Of a stretch of DNA of 23,535 nucleotides, positions 1 to 21,165 are shown piece by piece. Source of the stretch: a virus. The notes beneath the pieces are model-generated. The model searched no databases, was not told where the DNA came from, and saw nothing but the letters and a program-made list of their open reading frames with translations. Where the stretch lies: positions 1 to 23,535 of the IMG/VR virus record IMGVR_UViG_3300020595_000201. One strand, written 5' to 3'. The translations under genes were made by a program, and so were the position numbers. Numbering within the stretch: position 1 is the first letter of the stretch; each line of letters opens with the position of its first letter.

Positions 1-999
1 TCCGCATTGCGCGGATCCTTTGCTACAGTTGAAACTGTAGGTGATTGGCAAGCGCCTGAAGATACAGATAATGGTTTGTATCTGTGTAATGGCAGCGATT
101 GGACATTGATTCAGGGTTTGGATTCAGCAGGAACACCACCGCCTTTTCAAGGTAGTAACTTCGGGTATGCTTCTGGTGGCAACGATGGTTCGAGTGCAAG
201 TAACATCATCGAAAAGTTTCCGTTTGCGTCTGACGGTAACGCAACAGATGTAGGTGACCTGACAGCGGGTAGATATAATGCTGCGGGACAGAGTTCAGCA
301 ACCTATGGTTATAATTCTGGTGGTGTTCCTCTCAGTAATGTCATTAATAAGTTTTCGTTTGCTGCTGACGGTAATGCTACAGATGCGGGTGATTTGACAG
401 TGGCTAGATATAAAAGCGCAGGTCAAAGTTCAACAACTGATGGTTATACTACTGCTAGTGAGGGCAGTCCTTCTGTTACTTACAACGTCATCGATAAGTT
501 CTCTTTCGCGACTGACGGTAATGCTACAGATGTAGGCGATATGTCTGTACACAGATGGGCGGTCGCAGGTCAAAGTTCAACAACTGATGGTTATGCTTCT
601 GGCGGTCTACCCACTTATAACACCATCGATAAGTTTTCTTTCACGACTGACGGTGATGCTACAGATGTAGGCGACTTAAGTTCTGGCAGACAGTCGTTGA
701 CAGGTCAAAGTTCAACAACTCATGGTTATAGTTCCGGTGGTGTAACCACCGGACGTATAGATATCATCGATAAATTTCCTTTCGCTTCTGACGATGACGC
801 AACAGACGTTGGTGATTTGACAGTAGGTAAAAACGCCAACAGTGGTCAGAGTTCAACAGCCCATGGTTATAGTTCTGGTGGTTATGATACGGGAGCGTCT
901 AATATTATCGAAAAGTTTCCGTTTGCGTCTGACGCTAATGCTACAGATGTAGGTGACTTGACAGTGGCTAGATATAGTGTCGCTGGTCAACAATACTAA
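1..999 (+). CDS. Kelch-like six-repeat propeller protein, N-terminal type C (5' partial)
   Basis: Probable virion surface or tail-fibre-like protein. The reading frame is open from base 1. Its first residues (S-A-L-R-G-S) align with the interior of the neighbouring paralogue (S-L-R-G-S), so the gene starts upstream; the TTG at 7 is not a real start. A short module with a NGLYLCNGSDW stretch leads into FQGSNFGY, where the propeller begins. Six repeats follow, each of the pattern GY-SGG, variable loop, IDKF-F, DGNATDVGDLT, R, then GQSS. The chain closes with GQQY. Exactly six repeats of about 45 residues suggest a six-bladed beta-propeller. The nearest relative is the next gene, which shares the N-terminal module. 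Function on the virion is inferred from family character; no enzymatic motif is seen. Confidence 0.8.
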   Translation, partial: SALRGSFATVETVGDWQAPEDTDNGLYLCNGSDWTLIQGLDSAGTPPPFQGSNFGYASGGNDGSSASNIIEKFPFASDGNATDVGDLTAGRYNAAGQSSATYGYNSGGVPLSNVINKFSFAADGNATDAGDLTVARYKSAGQSSTTDGYTTASEGSPSVTYNVIDKFSFATDGNATDVGDMSVHRWAVAGQSSTTDGYASGGLPTYNTIDKFSFTTDGDATDVGDLSSGRQSLTGQSSTTHGYSSGGVTTGRIDIIDKFPFASDDDATDVGDLTVGKNANSGQSSTAHGYSSGGYDTGASNIIEKFPFASDANATDVGDLTVARYSVAGQQY

Positions 1000-1014
1000 T
1001 TAAGAGAATTAAAA

Positions 1015-2250
1015 ATGGCATTTAATCTAAACAACCTTTTGTCGACACTGGACTCTTCTATTGGATTGCTTGATAGTTCAAGTGATTTACTATCGATTTT
1101 ACAAGCAATCAATGTTACAAATCCCACAATGGGGCATGGTAAATCACAGAAAAAGACCTATGCTACTCGTGCCTCATTGCCTGCCGCATCGGTTAGTCTT
1201 CGCGGATCCCTTGCTGTAGTTCAGACCATAGGTAATTGGGCAGCAAGTGGAAATGCAGATAATGGTTTGTATGTGTGTAATGGCAACGATTGGGCGTTGG
1301 TTCAGGGTTTAGATTCTGCGGGAATACAACCTGTTTTTCAAGGTAGTAACTTTGGGTATACTTCTGGCGGTCTAAATCCCAGCAGCCTTAACGTTATCGA
1401 TAAGTTTCCTTTCTCGTCAAACAGCAACGCAACAGTGGTTGGTGACTTAACGCAGGCGGGCCGTGGTAGTGGTGGTCAGAGTTCACAGACTCATGGTTAT
1501 GTATCGGGCAACGGCGCTTCTAACGTCATCGACAAGTTTCCTTTCTCGTCAGACGGCGATGCAACAGATGTTGGCGACTTGACAGCAGGAAGATATAAAA
1601 TTACTGGCCAAAGTGATGTTGTTAACGGATTTGGTTATGCCACTGCTGGACAAAGTAATCATGGCATCGATAAGTTTCCTTTCTCAGCAGACGGCAACTC
1701 AACGGATATAGGCGAGATAACTCAGGGTAGATATGACCCCGCAGGCCAAAGTGATACTGTTAACGGATTTGGTTATACTTCTGGCGGAAGTTTGCCAGCC
1801 TCCGGCACTAATGTCATCGATAAGTTTTCTTTCACTTCTAACGGTAATGCTACAGATGTAGGTGATCTATGGCGGAATTCCAGCGGTCTCGCAGGTCAAA
1901 GTTCATCTACTCATGGTTATAATACGGGAGGAATGGTAAGGTGGCCGCCGTCATATCCGGCCACCCACGTGAACTATAATGAAATTACAAAGTTTCCCTT
2001 TGTTTCAGGCGGAAACTCTTCTGATATAAGTGATCTGACACAAGCTAGACAGGCGGGCGCAGGTCAAAGTTCTACAACTCATGGTTATACTTCTGGTGCC
2101 GGAGTGAACGGTGTACCGCCGCAAGCGGCCTACATAGTCTACTGGACAAATACCATCGACAAGTTTCCTTTTGCTTCTGACGATAACGCAACAGATGTCG
2201 GTGACCTGACAGGATCTAATAGATTGTTTATATCTGGTCAACAATACTAA
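1015..2250 (+). CDS. Kelch-like six-repeat propeller protein, N-terminal type C
   Basis: Complete 411-residue paralogue of the preceding gene. Residues 1-47 are a helix-prone, Ser/Leu-rich N-terminus (MAFNLNNLLS), perhaps the assembly or trimerisation part. Residues 48-100 hold a small module ending in NGLYVCNGNDW, and the propeller starts at FQGSNFGY (108-115). Six repeats are countable. Blades 5 and 6 have unusually long, aromatic- and proline-rich loops between the SGG and the ITKF/IDKF strands, while the framework is unchanged. This pattern is expected if loops on one face of the propeller bind variable targets. The 15-nt spacer before it (taagagaatt core) resembles those before the type-A genes. 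No late promoter is visible between the six genes, so they are probably co-transcribed from upstream. Confidence 0.82.
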   Translation: MAFNLNNLLSTLDSSIGLLDSSSDLLSILQAINVTNPTMGHGKSQKKTYATRASLPAASVSLRGSLAVVQTIGNWAASGNADNGLYVCNGNDWALVQGLDSAGIQPVFQGSNFGYTSGGLNPSSLNVIDKFPFSSNSNATVVGDLTQAGRGSGGQSSQTHGYVSGNGASNVIDKFPFSSDGDATDVGDLTAGRYKITGQSDVVNGFGYATAGQSNHGIDKFPFSADGNSTDIGEITQGRYDPAGQSDTVNGFGYTSGGSLPASGTNVIDKFSFTSNGNATDVGDLWRNSSGLAGQSSSTHGYNTGGMVRWPPSYPATHVNYNEITKFPFVSGGNSSDISDLTQARQAGAGQSSTTHGYTSGAGVNGVPPQAAYIVYWTNTIDKFPFASDDNATDVGDLTGSNRLFISGQQY

Positions 2251-2265
2251 TTAAGAGAATCTAAG

Positions 2266-3414
2266 ATGGCATTTAATATCACAAATTTAGTTAACGCGAT
2301 CAACGCTAAAAGTGCTACTGTTGGTGCTGATTCTGCGTTAGACAAAGCCGTTCTTTTAGCGAGTAATGTTAAGAACGCTTTAATATATTCTTCGTTGGTC
2401 GATCTACCTACTGCTGATTCTTCGAACCAAGGTGACCTTGTTCGTATTGGGGCATCATTTGGCGCGGACACAAATTACTATGTGTCACACAGAGATAGGT
2501 GGAATCTGATTGATTTATCAGATACTGGGTCCATTGTTCTGGGTCAGTATAGACCTTTTCAAGGTAGTAACTACGGATTCGTTACTGGCGGAAGTTCCAC
2601 TGACATCACGAAGTTCCCGTTTGCGTCTGACGGTAATGCAACAGATTTAGGTGATTTGACACAATCCGCCGCGATTTACTCAGGTCAAAGTTCAGGGACT
2701 CATGGTTACTGCACAAACAACAGTGGTGGTAATAAAATCGAAAAGTTTCCTTTCACGTCTAACGCAAACGCGACAGATATAGGTGATTTAGCGGATGCCT
2801 CAATCGGTGCTGGAGGAGGTCAAAGTTCATCAACTCATGGTTACACCGCTGGGGGTAGATTTACTTACATTCAAAAGTTTTCTTTCACGACTGATGGTGA
2901 TGCTACAACAAATTCAGGTGGTTTGGCGGTAAGCACCGGTGCGGCCGCAGGTCAGTCTGATGCTATTAACGCATTCGGTTATGTTACTGGAGGTACCATA
3001 CCCCCTTCAACATTCAGGAACGACATTCAAAAATTCTCGTTTGCGAGTGAAGCGGCCGCAACAGACATTGGTAATTTAACAATGGCTCGTTATTATATGT
3101 CCGGCCAGAGTTCAGAAACTCATGGTTATACTACTGGTGGCACTCAAGGTTCGGGACCAACGGCGTCCACCATTCGAGATCGGATTGACAAGTTTTCTTT
3201 CTCTTCTGGCGGTAGCGCGACAGATGTAGGCAACTTGTTAGAGTCTAAGACATCTAACACCGCAGGTCAAAGTTCTACTGTAAGTGGTTATACATCTGGC
3301 GGGTTGCCGACAACTTACCAAATCGAAAAGTTTCCTTTCTCGACTGACGCTAACGCAACAGATGTCGGTGACTTAGTTACAAATAGAACTTATATGACTG
3401 GTCAACAATACTAA
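2266..3414 (+). CDS. Kelch-like six-repeat propeller protein, N-terminal type A (copy 1)
   Basis: 382 residues. The N-terminus (MAFNITNLVNAINAKS) is nearly the same as in the gene at 4586. It is followed by a DLPTADSS stretch and a YYVSHRDRWNLID segment (residues 47-83), a small strand-rich module probably equivalent to the type-C module. The propeller begins at FQGSNYGF (98-105) and has six repeats with ITKF, IEKF, IQKF, IQKF, IDKF and IEKF strands, closing with GQQY. The framework is more diverged than in copy 2 (for example HGYCTNN in blade 2), so it is either the older copy or the faster-evolving one. It pairs with the type-B gene downstream; the pair is repeated at 4586-6857. Confidence 0.82.
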   Translation: MAFNITNLVNAINAKSATVGADSALDKAVLLASNVKNALIYSSLVDLPTADSSNQGDLVRIGASFGADTNYYVSHRDRWNLIDLSDTGSIVLGQYRPFQGSNYGFVTGGSSTDITKFPFASDGNATDLGDLTQSAAIYSGQSSGTHGYCTNNSGGNKIEKFPFTSNANATDIGDLADASIGAGGGQSSSTHGYTAGGRFTYIQKFSFTTDGDATTNSGGLAVSTGAAAGQSDAINAFGYVTGGTIPPSTFRNDIQKFSFASEAAATDIGNLTMARYYMSGQSSETHGYTTGGTQGSGPTASTIRDRIDKFSFSSGGSATDVGNLLESKTSNTAGQSSTVSGYTSGGLPTTYQIEKFPFSTDANATDVGDLVTNRTYMTGQQY

Positions 3415-3427
3415 AGGATTAAATTAA

Positions 3428-4570
3428 ATGGCGGGAACAGATATTACACGTCTCTTAGAGGCTATCCAAAAAAAGATAGACGCAGTAGATTCAAGTGCTT
3501 CTTCTGGTGATCTACTTCGTCTATTATCATCTGTCCGCCAAGCGGGAACAGGGTCTCTCTTGTCTTACACTAGTGCAAGCCAATTTCCGAACCTAATAGA
3601 TGGTACATCAGATCCTGAAATGATAGGATATAACATTGAAGATAACAAGTTGTACTTCCAACAAGATGCTTGGAATTATAAAACGACACCGCCGTTTCAA
3701 GGTAGTAACCATGGTTATACGTCTGGCGGCATAGGACCTTCTGGCAATACTGATGTCATCGACAAGTTTTCTTTCACCTCTAACGGTAACGCAACAGATG
3801 TAGGTAACTTAACCTCGACATCGGGTCAAGGTGCCGCGGGTCAAAGTTCGACTACAAATGGATATGCAAACGCATTTCAAACTTTTTCAAGCAAAATTGA
3901 CAAAATTTCCTTTGCCTCGGGTGGAGATGCGACAACAAGCGGCACCCTGCCCTATAGTTCGGACGGTCTCTGTGGTCAAAGTTCGACTGCGAACGGATAT
4001 GCTTCGGGATCTGGATATGTGAGTAAGTTCCCCTTTGCCGCCGATGCTGATGCTGTTGATGTTGTGAATCTTGTCGGCGCCGACGCTGCCCACGGCGCCG
4101 GAATAAGTTCATCTTTTGATGGTTATGTTGCTGGCGGGGGTTACAACCCCGGCACAACTCCTATTGACAAGTTTCCTTTTGCGTCTGATGCTAACGCAAC
4201 AACAGATGTAGGTGATTTGTCAGTAGCAAGAGGATTCATGTCTGGTCAAAATAGTAGTACTCATGGTTATATTTCTGGTGGTTCAGCAGCGTCGCTGAAC
4301 GCCTATTCAGATACTATTGATAAGTTTCCATTTGTCACTCATGGCACCGCAACAGATGTGGGCAATTTATCGGTCGCTCGTGGATTTGGCATTACCGCCG
4401 GTCAAAGTTCGACTACTGATGGTTATGCTTGCGGCGGCCGAGCGTTGCCGGCACCGGCGTACCCTATTCAATCGGTGATCGACAAGTTTTCTTTCGCATC
4501 TGGCGGCAATGCTGCAAATATAGGTAGTTTAACAGTAGCCAGACGTGGTTCCGCTGGTCAACAGCACTAA
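3428..4570 (+). CDS. Kelch-like six-repeat propeller protein, N-terminal type B (copy 1)
   Basis: 380 residues. The N-terminus (MAGTDITRLLEAIQKKID) is amphipathic and helix-prone through about residue 40. It is followed by a segment with DPEMIGYNIEDNKLYFQQDAW (62-82 region) that parallels the W-containing modules of the other types. FQGSNHGY starts the propeller at about residue 90. Six repeats can be counted, but blades 2 and 3 are degenerate: they lack the NATDVGDL signature and one has SKF instead of IDKF, while the GY and GQSS landmarks remain. The protein ends GQQH rather than GQQY. The 13-nt spacer before the start is identical to that before the other type-B gene, and the AGGA of the stop/spacer junction can act as Shine-Dalgarno. 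Confidence 0.82.
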   Translation: MAGTDITRLLEAIQKKIDAVDSSASSGDLLRLLSSVRQAGTGSLLSYTSASQFPNLIDGTSDPEMIGYNIEDNKLYFQQDAWNYKTTPPFQGSNHGYTSGGIGPSGNTDVIDKFSFTSNGNATDVGNLTSTSGQGAAGQSSTTNGYANAFQTFSSKIDKISFASGGDATTSGTLPYSSDGLCGQSSTANGYASGSGYVSKFPFAADADAVDVVNLVGADAAHGAGISSSFDGYVAGGGYNPGTTPIDKFPFASDANATTDVGDLSVARGFMSGQNSSTHGYISGGSAASLNAYSDTIDKFPFVTHGTATDVGNLSVARGFGITAGQSSTTDGYACGGRALPAPAYPIQSVIDKFSFASGGNAANIGSLTVARRGSAGQQH

Positions 4571-4585
4571 TCAAGAGAATCAAGA

Positions 4586-5704
4586 ATGGCATTTAATATC
4601 ACAAATTTAGTTAATGCGGTTAATGCTAAAAGTGTTACTGTTGGTGCTGATTCTGCATTGGATAGAGCAGTTCTCTTAACAAATGACATCAAGAATGCTT
4701 CGATATATTCTTCGTTGGATGATCTACCTACTGCTGATTCTTCAAACTCTGGTAGACTCTCTCGTGTTGGAGACGCAAATAATGCAAATACAAAATACTA
4801 TGTGTCACAAAGAAATAGGTGGAATCTAATCGGTTTGGATGATTCTGATGTGGTTACTGAGGGTCAGTTTCCCCCTTTTCAAGGTAGTAACTATGGTTAT
4901 GCTTCTGGTGGGAGTGGTAGTAGTAATGTCATCGAAAAATTCCCGTTTTCGTCTGACGCTAACGCAACAGATATAGGTGACTTGACAGTAGCAAGAAACG
5001 GGGCCGCCGGTCAAAGTTCTACAACTCATGGTTATACCTCTGGTGGGAGTGGTGGTACTAATGTCATTGATAAGTTTCCTTTCACTTCTGGCGGTAACGC
5101 ATCAGATGTAGGTGATTTGACAGTAGGTAGATATCATATCGCTGGTCAGAGTTCATCAACTCATGGTTATTCTTCTGGTGGTTATAACTCTAATGTCATT
5201 GATAAGTTCCCTTTCTCAACTGACGGTAATGCTACAGATGTAGGTGATTTGACAGTGTCCAGATATGGTGCCGCAGGTCAAAGTTCAACAACTCATGGTT
5301 ATTCTTCTGGTGGCGCGTTGCCAAGTGTTGGCACTCCCAACACCATCGATAAGTTTTCATTTACAGCAGACGGTAATGCTACAGATGTCGGTGACTTAGT
5401 TGCAGGTAGATATTATTCAACCGGTCAAAGTTCAACAACTCACGGTTATAATACTGGGGGATACCCCGTGGGCACAATCCAGAAGTTTACTTTCGCGACT
5501 GACACTAACGCAACAACTGTGGGAAATTTGTCAGTGTCCCGAGGCGGCTCCGCAGGTCAAAGTTCAACAACTCATGGTTATACCTCTGGTGGGACCGCTG
5601 GTACTAATGTCATTGATAAGTTCCCTTTCTCAACTGACGCTAATGCTACAGATGTCGGTGATTTGACAGTAGGTAGATATTATATCGCTGGTCAACAATA
5701 CTAA
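4586..5704 (+). CDS. Kelch-like six-repeat propeller protein, N-terminal type A (copy 2)
   Basis: 372 residues, paralogue of the gene at 2266. The first 80 residues align almost without gaps (MAFNITNLVNAVNAKS, then DLPTADSSNSG and YYVSQRNRWNLIG). The six propeller repeats are the most regular of the family: HGYTSGG or HGYSSGG, short Gly/Ser/Asn-rich loops, NVIDKFPF, then NATDVGDLTV. Short loops with the framework intact make this the closest in the window to a consensus blade. The regularity extends to the nucleotide level (repeated ggtcaaagttcaacaactca blocks), which suggests recent gene conversion or recent amplification. Confidence 0.84.
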   Translation: MAFNITNLVNAVNAKSVTVGADSALDRAVLLTNDIKNASIYSSLDDLPTADSSNSGRLSRVGDANNANTKYYVSQRNRWNLIGLDDSDVVTEGQFPPFQGSNYGYASGGSGSSNVIEKFPFSSDANATDIGDLTVARNGAAGQSSTTHGYTSGGSGGTNVIDKFPFTSGGNASDVGDLTVGRYHIAGQSSSTHGYSSGGYNSNVIDKFPFSTDGNATDVGDLTVSRYGAAGQSSTTHGYSSGGALPSVGTPNTIDKFSFTADGNATDVGDLVAGRYYSTGQSSTTHGYNTGGYPVGTIQKFTFATDTNATTVGNLSVSRGGSAGQSSTTHGYTSGGTAGTNVIDKFPFSTDANATDVGDLTVGRYYIAGQQY

Positions 5705-5717
5705 AGGATTAAATTAA

Positions 5718-6857
5718 ATGTCAGGAACAGATATTACAAATCTTTTGGATATTGTTCAGAGGAAAATAAACGCAGTAGATTCAAGTGCTTCCACTAGTGA
5801 TCTGCTTTACCTATTATCGGCTATTCGACAGTCCGGAGAAGGGTCTGTTTTTGCTTATGATAATGAAAGTCAGATTCCGAATCTATTAGACGGTACACCA
5901 GATCCTGAAATGATAGCCTATACCCTTGACAGTGACAAGTTGTATTTTCAGAGAGGCTCTTGGGTTGGCAAAGAATTACCGATAACCATAATACCTTTTC
6001 AAGGTAGTAACTATGGTTATGTTTCTGGTGCCAACCCAGGCGGAGGTGCGCTTGACACCATCGACAAATATCCTTTCACGTCTGACGGTAATGCTACAGA
6101 TGTAGGTAACTTGTCCGTAGGAAGATGGCAATGCGCAGGGCAGAGTTCAGCAACTCATGGTTATACTTCTGGTGGCAACACGGGCCCTGCTCTAAGTGGG
6201 CCAGTAGACACCATCGATAAGTTTCCTTTCTCGACTGACGCTAACGCTACAGATGTAGGTAACTTGACCGCAGCCAGAACCGCCACCTCAGGTCAAAGTT
6301 CTATCCCTAATGGATATGGTTATAATACTGGTGGTGGTAATGTCATTGAAAAGTTTTCTTTCACTTCTGACGGTAACTCAACATCAGTAGGCAATACGCT
6401 AGCATCTAGAGAGTATGCTGTAGGTCAAAGTTCAACAACTCATGGTTATGCTTCTGGTAATTATCCGATAACCACTGACATCGATAAATTCCCGTTTTCG
6501 TCTGACGGTAACTCAACAGACGTTGGTGATTTGACAGTGGGTAGAGGTGGCAATTTTGGACAGAGTTCTACAACTCATGGTTATACTGCTGGTGGTTATA
6601 GCCCCGTCGGTAATGACGATCCCATCGACAAGTTTTCTTTCGCAACTGACGGTAACGCAACAGATGTCGGTGATTTGACGGTAGGAAGACAAACCGGTGC
6701 AGGTTCAAGTTCTACAACTCATGGTTATAGTGCTGGTGGTTATGGTCCAGGCACGTCGAATATCATTGATAAATTTCCTTTCTCGACTGACGCTAACGCA
6801 ACAGATGTCGGTGACTTAACCCTGGGCAGATATCAAGGCGCTGGTCAACAATACTAA
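5718..6857 (+). CDS. Kelch-like six-repeat propeller protein, N-terminal type B (copy 2)
   Basis: 379 residues, paralogue of the gene at 3428: MSGTDITNLLDIVQRKINAV at the N-terminus, DPEMIAYTLDSDKLYFQ at about residues 62-78, and FQGSNYGY opening the propeller at about residue 94. Six repeats; blade 3 has a short insertion (NGYGYNTGG) and blade 5 ends GSSS where the others have GQSS. It closes with GQQY. This is the last member of the array. After it come a 14-bp palindrome and an unrelated oxygenase gene, with no clear terminator, so transcription may continue downstream. Confidence 0.83.
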   Translation: MSGTDITNLLDIVQRKINAVDSSASTSDLLYLLSAIRQSGEGSVFAYDNESQIPNLLDGTPDPEMIAYTLDSDKLYFQRGSWVGKELPITIIPFQGSNYGYVSGANPGGGALDTIDKYPFTSDGNATDVGNLSVGRWQCAGQSSATHGYTSGGNTGPALSGPVDTIDKFPFSTDANATDVGNLTAARTATSGQSSIPNGYGYNTGGGNVIEKFSFTSDGNSTSVGNTLASREYAVGQSSTTHGYASGNYPITTDIDKFPFSSDGNSTDVGDLTVGRGGNFGQSSTTHGYTAGGYSPVGNDDPIDKFSFATDGNATDVGDLTVGRQTGAGSSSTTHGYSAGGYGPGTSNIIDKFPFSTDANATDVGDLTLGRYQGAGQQY

Positions 6858-6880: not shown

Positions 6881-6903
6881 GATTGAAAATTTGGAGTTTT
6901 GTT

Positions 6904-8154
6904 ATGGATGCAGAGAAATCTTTTCGTGAGAATCGATATGTCTATCTTTCGGGTGCTGTTTCTCGTGACGATTGCGAGAAACTCACCAATCACATGTTTG
7001 AACTTTTTGAAAACGGTGAGTTAGAAAAAGACCCTCAGTGCCCTCTTTCAGATTCAATATATGGAAACCCCATATTTGATAATCTTGCTGCATCTCTTGC
7101 GCCTGCTTTGTCCAAGCAATTAGGTGTAGAGATCGCACCAACTTATACCTACTGCCGTATCTACAGAAACTCAGAACTTTTAGTTCGACACACAGATCGC
7201 CCATCATGCGAGATTTCTGGAACTATGACTCTGGGGTTCGACGACTCTTCGGGTATATGGCCAATCTTCTTTGCTGAAGATGAAGATGATGTTGTGGGTC
7301 ATCCTTTAGAAATCAATATTGGCGATATTGTAATGTATCGAGGATGTGAGTTACCTCATTGGAGACCAAAGTACAAGGGTAAATGGCAAGTTCAAGTATT
7401 CTTTCACTATGTCAATGTGAATGGTCCTCACAAAGATCATATCTTCGATGGTCGATCTACCATGGGTGTGCCAAAAGAGCAACAACCCTTACTCGTTGAA
7501 GCGCCTCAGAGAGAAGAACTGACATCAAAGGTCATCTATGATGGTGTTATGATTACAACGAACGATGAAGTCTTTCCGGGCTTAACACACTTCGATAAAG
7601 ACTTTAACCCTCATCTCTCGTTCACAGCAGAAGAATGTAAGAAAATTGTTTCACACTCAGACACTCTTTATCCCTCAAAGTCAACTGTTGGTGGAGGTGA
7701 TAAAGAAAGAACTTACGATGTTGACATTCGTGCTGTAGACACGTATAGTATAGAATTGAATGACAAAACTAAGTGGATATTTGATCGTATTGCTGCCGCT
7801 ACGGGAACAGCGAATCGCGACTATTACAAATATAATGTTTTGGGAATAACTCATTCGTTACAGTTGTTACACTATAAAGGTGATGAGAACGGACACTATG
7901 ATTGGCATATCGATGCTGGACCTGGCCCAAGTTGTACTCGCAAGATTTCGGTGATCGTACCTCTCAATAACCCCGAAGAATTTGAAGGTGGTGTTCTTGA
8001 TATCAACAACAGCGGTACGATTGTTGCTGCCCCTCAAACACCCGGAACTATGATTCTTTTTCCAAGTTTTACTCCTCATAGAGTGAATCCAGTGACGAAA
8101 GGTGATCGATGGTCCCTTGTTTCTTGGGTACACGGTACTGATAGATTCAAATAG
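6904..8154 (+). CDS. Double-domain 2OG-Fe(II) oxygenase
   Basis: 416 residues from the ATG at 6904, chosen over an upstream TTG because GGAG lies 7 nt before it. Two oxygenase-like double-stranded beta-helix domains are visible. In domain 1 (about 10-175) the iron site is H96-x-D98 (RHTDRP) and H152 (LPHWR). In domain 2 (about 225-412) it is H335-x-D337 (DWHIDAG), H392 (TPHRV) and R402 (GDRWSLV), the last being the usual 2-oxoglutarate carboxylate ligand; this domain resembles prolyl-4-hydroxylase/PKHD enzymes. Both triads are intact, so both halves may be active. The family uses Fe(II), O2 and 2-oxoglutarate to hydroxylate proteins or other substrates; the substrate is unknown. Its place right after the propeller genes makes a virion protein a possible target (inference). 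Confidence 0.85.
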   Translation: MDAEKSFRENRYVYLSGAVSRDDCEKLTNHMFELFENGELEKDPQCPLSDSIYGNPIFDNLAASLAPALSKQLGVEIAPTYTYCRIYRNSELLVRHTDRPSCEISGTMTLGFDDSSGIWPIFFAEDEDDVVGHPLEINIGDIVMYRGCELPHWRPKYKGKWQVQVFFHYVNVNGPHKDHIFDGRSTMGVPKEQQPLLVEAPQREELTSKVIYDGVMITTNDEVFPGLTHFDKDFNPHLSFTAEECKKIVSHSDTLYPSKSTVGGGDKERTYDVDIRAVDTYSIELNDKTKWIFDRIAAATGTANRDYYKYNVLGITHSLQLLHYKGDENGHYDWHIDAGPGPSCTRKISVIVPLNNPEEFEGGVLDINNSGTIVAAPQTPGTMILFPSFTPHRVNPVTKGDRWSLVSWVHGTDRFK

Positions 8155-9440: not shown

Positions 9441-10664
9441 ATGTTAGCATTTTCTGATTTTCTGACCGAACAAAAGAATACCCATATGACCCACATTGAG
9501 GATAAAGTCCTCTACGGTGGTGTTAATGGTACACGTCAAGCAATCTTTGCCTTACGTGATTTACGTGATATGCTTAGTGGTGTAAAAGATACGGGAGTTT
9601 CTGTCAAGTGGGATGGCGCACCTGCTATCTTTGCTGGTACTGATCCACGAGACGGTCAGTTCTTTGTAGCAAAGAAAGGTATTTTTAATAAGAACCCTAA
9701 AGTCTACAAGACGCCCGCAGAGGTAGACGAAGACACTTCGGGTGATCTTGCTACTAAACTTAAAGACGCATTACAGTATCTACCCGCTCTTGGAATCAAA
9801 GGTGTTATTCAAGGGGACTTCTTATTTGGTAAGGGTGATATTAAGAAACAAAAAATTAAAGGCGAAAGATACATTACCTTCCATCCTAACACTATTGTTT
9901 ATGCTATTCCGGTTGATCAAGCAAAAGACATTCAGCGAGCAAAAATCGGTATTGTATGGCATACTACATATACAGGTAGTACATTTGAAACAATGAAAGC
10001 ATCATATGGAGTTGATGTGAGTAAGTTGAAAAAGACCGCCAACGTGTGGTCACAAGACGCAATGCTTCGAGATGTTCGAAGCGCAACCATGACTAAAAAT
10101 GAAACGGAGACAGTGAATGAATATCTTTCGCAAATTGGTAAACTTTTTAACGGGATCTCAGGAACAACCCTTAGAACCCTCGAAGCCAACCAAACCCTTG
10201 CCCAGCACATCGAGCAGTTCAACAACACCTACGTCCGAGCCGGCGCAACCATCGGTGATAGTAGAGCCCACACCACCAAGCTCATCAACTGGATCAAAAA
10301 CAAGTACAAAAAAGAAATCGACAACCGCAAAAGCGACCGCGGCAAAGCCACGCAAAAAGCGAAGCTCGACGACCTCCTCTCCTTCTTCGGCGAAGAAAAC
10401 AAAGCAAACTTAATTCGAATGTTCGAGTTGCAAAAATTGATTGTTATTGTTAAACTGAAACTTATAAATAAACTTAATAAACTGAATAGTCTTGAAACCT
10501 TTATTAAAACCCGAAAGGGTTTCAAGGTTACAGGTCAGGAAGGATATGTAGCAATAGACACAATTGGTGGTGATGCGGTGAAACTTGTTGATCGTATGGA
10601 GTTTTCATACAACAACTTTTCACCTGATATTTTGAAAGGATGGGATAAACCAACGAGAAATTAA
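9441..10664 (+). CDS. KxDG ligase-like nucleotidyltransferase, probable internal head protein
   Basis: 407 residues. Motifs of the covalent nucleotidyltransferase superfamily (ATP-dependent DNA/RNA ligases, capping enzymes) are visible in order. Motif I is K56-W-D58-G59 with K56 as candidate AMP-accepting lysine. A motif-III-like QGDFLF lies at 124-129. Motif IV is E367-G368-Y-V and motif V is V380-K381-L-V. About 190 residues of mostly helical sequence separate the III-like and IV motifs, much longer than usual for a ligase, so activity is uncertain. I recall similar proteins in marine T4-like phages annotated only as unknown. The N-terminus LAFSDFLTE resembles the T4 capsid-targeting peptide and carries an LxE cleavage consensus. 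Codon use changes sharply to C-ending codons at about 10149-10410, where another ORF lies in a second frame. Confidence 0.8.
   Translation: MLAFSDFLTEQKNTHMTHIEDKVLYGGVNGTRQAIFALRDLRDMLSGVKDTGVSVKWDGAPAIFAGTDPRDGQFFVAKKGIFNKNPKVYKTPAEVDEDTSGDLATKLKDALQYLPALGIKGVIQGDFLFGKGDIKKQKIKGERYITFHPNTIVYAIPVDQAKDIQRAKIGIVWHTTYTGSTFETMKASYGVDVSKLKKTANVWSQDAMLRDVRSATMTKNETETVNEYLSQIGKLFNGISGTTLRTLEANQTLAQHIEQFNNTYVRAGATIGDSRAHTTKLINWIKNKYKKEIDNRKSDRGKATQKAKLDDLLSFFGEENKANLIRMFELQKLIVIVKLKLINKLNKLNSLETFIKTRKGFKVTGQEGYVAIDTIGGDAVKLVDRMEFSYNNFSPDILKGWDKPTRN
10106..10109 (+). promoter_or_regulatory. Shine-Dalgarno for the nested ORF
   Basis: GGAG lies 7 nt upstream of the ATG at 10117, inside the ligase-like coding sequence. 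Spacing and sequence are as good as those of the best ordinary genes in the window (for example 8244 and 6904). Confidence 0.6.
10117..10413 (+). CDS. Nested out-of-frame ORF: 98-residue Ser/Thr/Pro/Lys-rich basic protein
   Basis: Lies wholly inside the ligase-like gene in another frame. Residues 1-13 (MNIFRKLVNFLTG) look like a short amphipathic helix. Residues 14-58 are Pro/Ser/Thr-rich and uncharged to acidic. Residues 59-98 are Lys/Arg-rich with KTSTKKKS and KPRKKRSS stretches, like a histone H1-type tail. The whole is low-complexity and probably disordered. Support: its own GGAG at 7 nt; and the surrounding gene changes from A/T-ending to C-ending codons over just this tract (by hand count about 51 of 87 codons end in C and about 5 in T), reverting at the stop of this ORF. 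The wobble base of the outer frame is position 2 of this frame, where C gives Ser, Pro, Thr or Ala. A nucleic-acid-binding or condensing role is a guess. Confidence 0.55.
   Translation: MNIFRKLVNFLTGSQEQPLEPSKPTKPLPSTSSSSTTPTSEPAQPSVIVEPTPPSSSTGSKTSTKKKSTTAKATAAKPRKKRSSTTSSPSSAKKTKQT
10463..10470 (+). promoter_or_regulatory. Possible internal late promoter
   Basis: Exact TATAAATA inside the 3' part of the ligase-like gene, about 195 nt before the start at 10666. It may drive the next genes, or be a chance match (it encodes part of KLINKL in AT-rich sequence). Confidence 0.35.
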
Positions 10665-20763: not shown

Positions 20764-21165
20764 ATGTCATATTCAGACAAAGTTATGGATCACTATGAAA
20801 ACCCACGTAATGTTGGGAGACTGGACAAGGAATCTTCTGAAGTTGGCACAGGTATGGTCGGTGCACCTGCTTGTGGTGACGTAATGTTGTTACAAATCAA
20901 GGTGAATGACAATGGAATTATCGAAGATGCTAAATTTAAAACCTACGGATGCGGAAGTGCTATCGCTTCTTCCTCATTGCTTACCGAATGGGTTAAAGGT
21001 CGAAGTCTTGAGGAAGCTGGAGAAATTAAAAACACCCAACTTGCCGAAGAACTTGCCCTCCCACCCGTCAAAATCCACTGTAGTGTCCTTGCAGAAGATG
21101 CGATCAAAGCTGCGATAAAGGACTATAGAGGCAAACATGATAACACTGACACAGTCCGCCTCTGA
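20764..21165 (+). CDS. iscU: IscU-type iron-sulphur cluster scaffold
   Basis: 133 residues, GAGGG 7 nt upstream, 3 nt after nrdA. All ligand residues of IscU are present at the same numbers as in Escherichia coli IscU: C37 and D39 (GAPACGDV), C63 (YGCGSA), H105 and C106 (KIHCS). The LPPVK motif bound by the HscA chaperone is at 99-103, so it should interact with the host ISC machinery. It assembles 2Fe-2S or 4Fe-4S clusters from cysteine-desulphurase sulphur and iron. Full length and intact, hence probably functional. The phage supplies the scaffold but no desulphurase in this window, so it must rely on host IscS. Overlaps iscA by 29 nt. Confidence 0.95.
   Translation: MSYSDKVMDHYENPRNVGRLDKESSEVGTGMVGAPACGDVMLLQIKVNDNGIIEDAKFKTYGCGSAIASSSLLTEWVKGRSLEEAGEIKNTQLAEELALPPVKIHCSVLAEDAIKAAIKDYRGKHDNTDTVRL

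Follow-up and report, generated by a model that had tools for sequence, protein, structure and literature searches.

Phages are known to carry small genes nested in the +1 frame of a longer gene: Rz1 lies within Rz (PMC6139136), and the Sgl genes of leviviruses are another example (PMC7693330). More generally, overlapping genes of viruses are enriched in C, Ser, Pro, and Arg (PMC6195259). Here we describe an open reading frame (ORF) in the +1 frame of a phage gene from the DUF6267 family. Based on comparisons of related sequences, and without any translation data, we think that it is very likely (probability about 0.88) to be a genuine overprinted protein-coding gene. Its translation into a protein of its own is inferred from sequence alone, as we have no Ribo-seq, proteomics, or mutant.

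The putative inner gene resembles Rz1 of lambda in that it would encode a small, proline-rich protein, is nested in the +1 frame, and has its own start. However, Rz1 pairs with Rz and is secreted as a lipoprotein that carries a lipobox cysteine, whereas the inner protein lacks both a cysteine and a signal and is not encoded within a spanin gene. The Sgl genes within the levivirus rep gene are also in the +1 frame, arose de novo, and occupy regions where the outer gene is less conserved (PMC7693330), but those candidates were picked for having a transmembrane domain, which the inner protein lacks, and they are found in RNA phages instead of a large DNA phage. As a class, viral genes that overlap are similarly enriched in C, Ser, and Pro, are disorder-promoting, and have an outer gene that is more widely distributed (PMC6195259, PMC3744397). 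What differs here is that carriers and non-carriers share one outer gene, so the effect on codons can be compared directly. Finally, the C-terminal tail of histone H1 has a similar composition (Ser, Thr, Pro, Ala, and Lys) and probable disorder, but the inner protein has no charge excess, no globular domain, and no shown homology to H1.

The features of the locus are listed in the table below. The window is the whole stretch of viral DNA that we analyzed. A preliminary description had reported an ORF of 98 codons inside another gene, with an ATG and with GGAG at 7 nt, and this held. We propose that the inner gene would start from this GGAG and ATG on the mRNA of the outer gene. Because an in-frame TGA touches the ATG, a frameshift upstream could not feed the inner frame without a restart. 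Most of the relatives with the full ORF (group A, below) also have an inner-frame stop at the codon directly before the ATG.

Table. Coordinates of the inner gene, the outer gene, and associated features
Feature	Position	Strand	Remarks
Window	23,535 bases		Virus record
Outer gene, 407 aa, DUF6267 family	9441..10664	+	Pfam PF19782, E 2.8e-104; phrog_455, E 1e-101
GGAG, Shine-Dalgarno-like	10106..10109	+	7 nt 5' of the inner ATG
TGA in the inner frame	10114..10116	+	Abuts the inner ATG; shuts the frame upstream
Inner (putative overprinted) gene, 98 aa	10117..10413	+	+1 frame of the outer gene, ATG to TAA
Inner residues 3-13, IFRKLVNFLTG	10123..10155	+	Amphipathic helix, predicted by AlphaFold and hydrophobic moment
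Inner residues 14-98, Ser/Thr/Pro/Ala/Lys tail	10156..10410	+	Probably disordered, from composition and no predicted secondary structure
Outer codons with C-ending bias	10158..10412	+	49/85 end in C, 5/85 in T; edge is the inner stop

Elsewhere in the window, positions 7-6857 hold six consecutive paralogous ORFs (starting at 7, 1015, 2266, 3428, 4586, and 5718) that are 37-62% identical to each other; two of the six match phrog_19111. In the single ORF at 6883-8154, the N-terminal half matches a family of phage ferrochelatases and the C-terminal half matches a family of 2OG-Fe(II) oxygenases. Another +1 ORF (70 amino acids, at 20906-21118, with an ATG and AAGG upstream) is nested within a 133-amino-acid ORF at 20764-21165.

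Codons 237-323 of the outer gene have an unusual preference for C at the third position: among these 87 codons, 50 end in C, 22 in A, 10 in G, and just 5 in T. In the following 38 codons, 4 end in C and 15 in T. These counts confirm hand counts in the preliminary description (51 of 87 ending in C and 5 in T, and then 4 of 38 in C). The richest 70-codon stretch of the outer gene has 63% C at the third position, versus 33% for the best stretch of any other gene in the window (mean 0.19 and standard deviation 0.06). Within the tract, C is elevated at the third position only, and G is not elevated at that position. The outer wobble base is position 2 of the inner codon, and any codon with C at position 2 encodes Ser, Pro, Thr, or Ala, so outer position 1 stays free. 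The comparisons below show that, in relatives with the full ORF, the inner tail exchanges hydrophobic residues for Ser, Thr, Pro, and Ala via the C that is forced at the outer wobble base.

To estimate what the outer protein alone would produce, we redrew synonymous codons while holding the outer protein constant. The chance that the inner frame stays open across 86 codons is about 0.045. The inner frame encodes 49 Ser, Thr, Pro, or Ala residues, as compared to about 17 in the resampled sequences (z about 9; the maximum in 2,000 resamplings was 31).

Relatives of the outer gene are present in 465 phage records, mostly from cyanophages but also from other T4-like phages. DUF6267 was not mentioned, and the overlap was not described, in the literature that we searched, and neither Pfam, PHROGs, nor the phage records that we examined annotate a nested gene here. 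The description of the outer gene as ligase-like is undemonstrated: it rests only on a KxDG motif (K56, D58, and G59), which is invariant. We found no match to a ligase in Pfam or the PDB, and sequence and fold searches gave no convincing relative with a solved structure. A structural model of the outer protein (mean pLDDT of 69, and below 50 for the C-terminal 57 residues) had no Foldseek match under E = 0.001. The top match from profile search was gamma-SNAP (E = 0.006), which covered helices, and we took this to be due to chance. In all three groups of relatives that we define below, no part of the outer protein changes faster than the tract (pN of 0.26-0.32, versus 0.12-0.18), which is predicted to be helical, albeit by a low-confidence model. 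The inner ORF sits on this rapidly changing stretch, and it is possible that fast change and helicity make the overlap affordable.

To compare relatives, we scanned viral contigs with DUF6267 proteins. Three scans yielded at least 200 or so loci, and the non-redundant set comprised 127 relatives and 3 outgroup genes. We placed the relatives in three groups. Group A (22 relatives) has an ORF of 80-106 amino acids with an excess of inner Ser, Thr, Pro, and Ala (z of at least 4). Group B (65 relatives) also has an open frame in this position, about 55-89 codons long, but it is shorter or weaker, and group C (40 relatives) has no such open frame. Group A has the same wobble shift as the window's gene, and group C does not have it. 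Because group A was defined by its high content of inner Ser, Thr, Pro, and Ala, its own wobble shift is partly circular, but the tests of the moving edge, silent divergence, and Shine-Dalgarno sequences are independent of this definition. Also, the relatives share ancestry, so the counts are not independent and the P values from Fisher's exact test are nominal.

Neither the ORF nor the bias is present in relatives at a greater distance (C48C1, DLP_6, Melnitz, HTVC008M, and genes from genome bins). The exception is L235, which has an open frame of 83 codons, without strong bias. In a near-identical relative, L212 (3001-3399), the match to the outer protein extends only to residue 324, with the inner frame continuing into the outer C-terminus; this pattern resembles the result of a deletion that shifts the frame or of an error in assembly.

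The strongest evidence for overprinting is that the edge of the C-ending bias in the outer gene shifts with the inner stop. In 14 members of group A, the inner frame stops early (around codon 305-312 of the outer gene), and in the other 8 it reads on to codon 321 or beyond. Codons 313-320 played no part in defining group A. Across these codons, the early-stop members have C at the third position in 22/112 cases and T in 45/112 cases, which resembles the non-carriers, while the read-through members have C in 38/64 cases and T in 0/64 cases (nominal P = 3e-11 for the contrast in T). A conserved Phe-Phe pair in this segment is always encoded by TTC TTC in the read-through members and is mixed in the early-stop members (in the first data set). 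The earlier claim that the codon bias reverts at the inner stop is correct, and it is also true in relatives whose stop is earlier. The claim that selection for inner Ser, Pro, Thr, and Ala bends the outer wobble choice is also supported, including by the comparison of silent change below.

The wobble choice also flips within the ORF. In group A, outer codons are T-rich under the N-terminal helix and C-ending under the tail. For instance, Phe236 is encoded by TTT in 21/22 members (giving Leu11 of the inner protein), and the adjacent Asn237 is encoded by AAC in 20/22 (giving Thr12). Two-fold pyrimidine codons in group A end in C 90% of the time in the tail and 36-38% of the time in the helix and the flanks. 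In group C, this is near 40% throughout.

A comparison of silent change, which the preliminary description had proposed as a check, showed that the drop in silent divergence within the tract is confined to group A. The mean outer-silent divergence (pS) falls from 0.750 upstream to 0.515 in the tract in group A, versus 0.735 and 0.753 in group B and 0.789 and 0.835 in group C. Among near-identical phages, there were 4 silent SNPs per 63 sites in the tract versus 29 per 202 sites in the flanks, but this is a small sample.

A Shine-Dalgarno-like 4-mer precedes the inner ATG in 20/22 members of group A, 45/65 members of group B, and 8/40 members of group C, or 65/87 for the carriers (A and B together) versus 8/40 for group C. 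Other ATGs in the +1 frame are preceded by such a 4-mer 12% of the time. This is sequence evidence only.

An open frame is weaker evidence. At codons 45-115 of the DUF6267 gene, open +1 frames are also more common than expected from resampling (41/126 versus 6.3 expected, with a start at codon 60), although we did not see a conserved start or a shift in composition there. So, openness alone is weak evidence for coding. Support for group B rests mainly on openness, which makes it weak, and group B's members are only possible carriers.

What is selected in group A is the open frame, an amphipathic N-terminus, and a tail that is rich in Ser, Thr, Pro, and Ala and poor in hydrophobic residues; the comparisons show each of these. 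In the tail, Ser and Thr together account for 0.336 of residues versus 0.126 expected from synonymous resampling (z = 6.2), Pro for 0.131 versus 0.034 (z = 5.3), and Ala for 0.071 versus 0.022 (z = 3.5), while Phe, Leu, Ile, Met, and Val account for 0.084 versus 0.318 (z = -4.8). For Ser and Thr, group B is weakly shifted in the same direction (z = 2.1) and group C is not shifted (z = 0.15). The preliminary description's amphipathic N-terminus held up: the helical hydrophobic moment of inner residues 2-13 is above resampling in group A (mean z = 2.35), and AlphaFold predicts a helix at residues 3-13, with modest confidence, and coil for the remainder. Selection has thus acted on the hydrophilicity of the tail and on its probable disorder. 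Searches with the inner protein gave no usable match in Pfam or PHROGs. A match to LPMO_AA14 from Pfam (E = 0.024) was below the cut-off and we took it to be low-complexity noise.

We considered several other explanations. The one that survives best, although we think that it is unlikely, is that the inner gene is real but encodes a DNA-binding protein similar to histone H1, with a basic tail that was selected, as the preliminary description had suggested. The tail is indeed net positive (14 to 27 Lys or Arg against 2 to 9 Asp or Glu in group A) and rich in Ser, Thr, Pro, Ala, and Lys. However, Lys and Arg make up 0.232 of the tail versus 0.233 expected (z = 0.04). Because this matches the level that the outer protein dictates, the positive charge appears to be a by-product and not a selected trait. 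Binding to DNA in the capsid or to the host's nucleic acid remains a guess, without any binding data.

Second, the C-ending tract could be a recombinant import from a genome that prefers C-ending codons, with the open inner frame as a by-product. In favor of this, the tract recombines or diverges faster than its flanks in three pairs of relatives (L029/L037, L111/L165, and L055/L069), and with a C-ending bias alone, the frame would be expected to remain open in about 78% of cases. But C is raised only at the third position and G is not raised there, which does not fit a GC-rich donor; the edge tracks the inner stop; the codons under the helix lack the bias, with TTT for Phe236 adjoining AAC for Asn237; and the Shine-Dalgarno sequence is kept. 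So, the import that the preliminary description had left as an escape is very unlikely.

Selection on the RNA or DNA itself, such as for an unstructured C-rich and G-poor site for binding Rho, is also very unlikely. On the coding strand, the tract is indeed rich in C and poor in G (GC skew of -0.11), and the wobble bases would be usable for this, but such a signal would not track the inner stop, would not flip across inner codons 1-12, and would not coincide with a Shine-Dalgarno sequence and an ATG. Nor did any of the relatives that we compared keep the C-ending bias while having inner-frame stops in the tract.

Another very unlikely possibility is that the inner protein is a spanin outer subunit like Rz1 or a single-gene lysis protein like Sgl. 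These have the same frame relation and small size, and the Pro-rich tail fits as well (PMC6139136); Sgl genes also tend to lie where conservation of the outer gene is lower (PMC7693330). However, there is no lipobox cysteine, and 21/22 inner proteins from group A have no cysteine at all. Nor is there a segment long enough to span the membrane: the sole predicted helix has 11 residues and the tail is hydrophilic.

Finally, chance, or a long but untranslated frame left open by the composition and codon usage of the outer gene, might be suggested by the excess of open +1 frames at codons 45-115, but is all but excluded by the inner composition (z of 4-10 across the 22 group A relatives, by synonymous resampling), the moving edge, the depressed divergence at silent sites, and the Shine-Dalgarno sequences.

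If the overprinted gene is genuine, as we think, then it probably arose de novo on an older outer gene. We infer this because every relative of the inner protein that we found lies within a DUF6267 gene (29/29 viral loci, with no standalone copy) and because relatives of the outer gene that lack the inner ORF are more widespread than the carriers. A tblastn search with the inner protein against phage records found nothing, and so no isolate phage with the inner ORF, but little of the query escapes masking by the low-complexity filter. Group A is scattered on a tree of the outer flanks (9 changes, of which starred branches force 2) and on a tree of the tract (10 changes), so gain, loss, and recombination of the tract cannot be separated. 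The three pairs of relatives named above have near-identical upstream parts but diverged tracts, which might reflect either recombination or very fast change.

A bolder reading is that groups C, B, and A are successive grades in the birth or loss of an overprinted gene at one place. Group C has no open frame or bias; group B has about 55-89 open codons, often with a Shine-Dalgarno sequence, and weak enrichment in Ser and Thr (z around 2); and group A has the full ORF, strong bias, and a stop that moves. We lean slightly against this reading. If it is true, overprinting would here have left a natural record of the birth of a gene, in which every stage is represented by near relatives.

As for function, we can only speculate. 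One possibility is that the inner protein is an accessory effector whose short helix docks on a membrane or a protein partner while its tail, which is flexible and net positive, makes contact with a polyanion such as nucleic acid. This is a guess, without functional data.

Ordinary annotation misses nested genes. The DUF6267 gene is an unusually clean case because the inner ORF can end early, end late, or be absent within the same outer gene, so that the cost of overprinting can be read. It also illustrates how composition can mislead: the richness in Ser, Thr, Pro, and Ala was selected, while the positive charge came free from the outer protein. If the inner gene is translated, then it represents an unrecognized family of proteins in marine T4-like phages.
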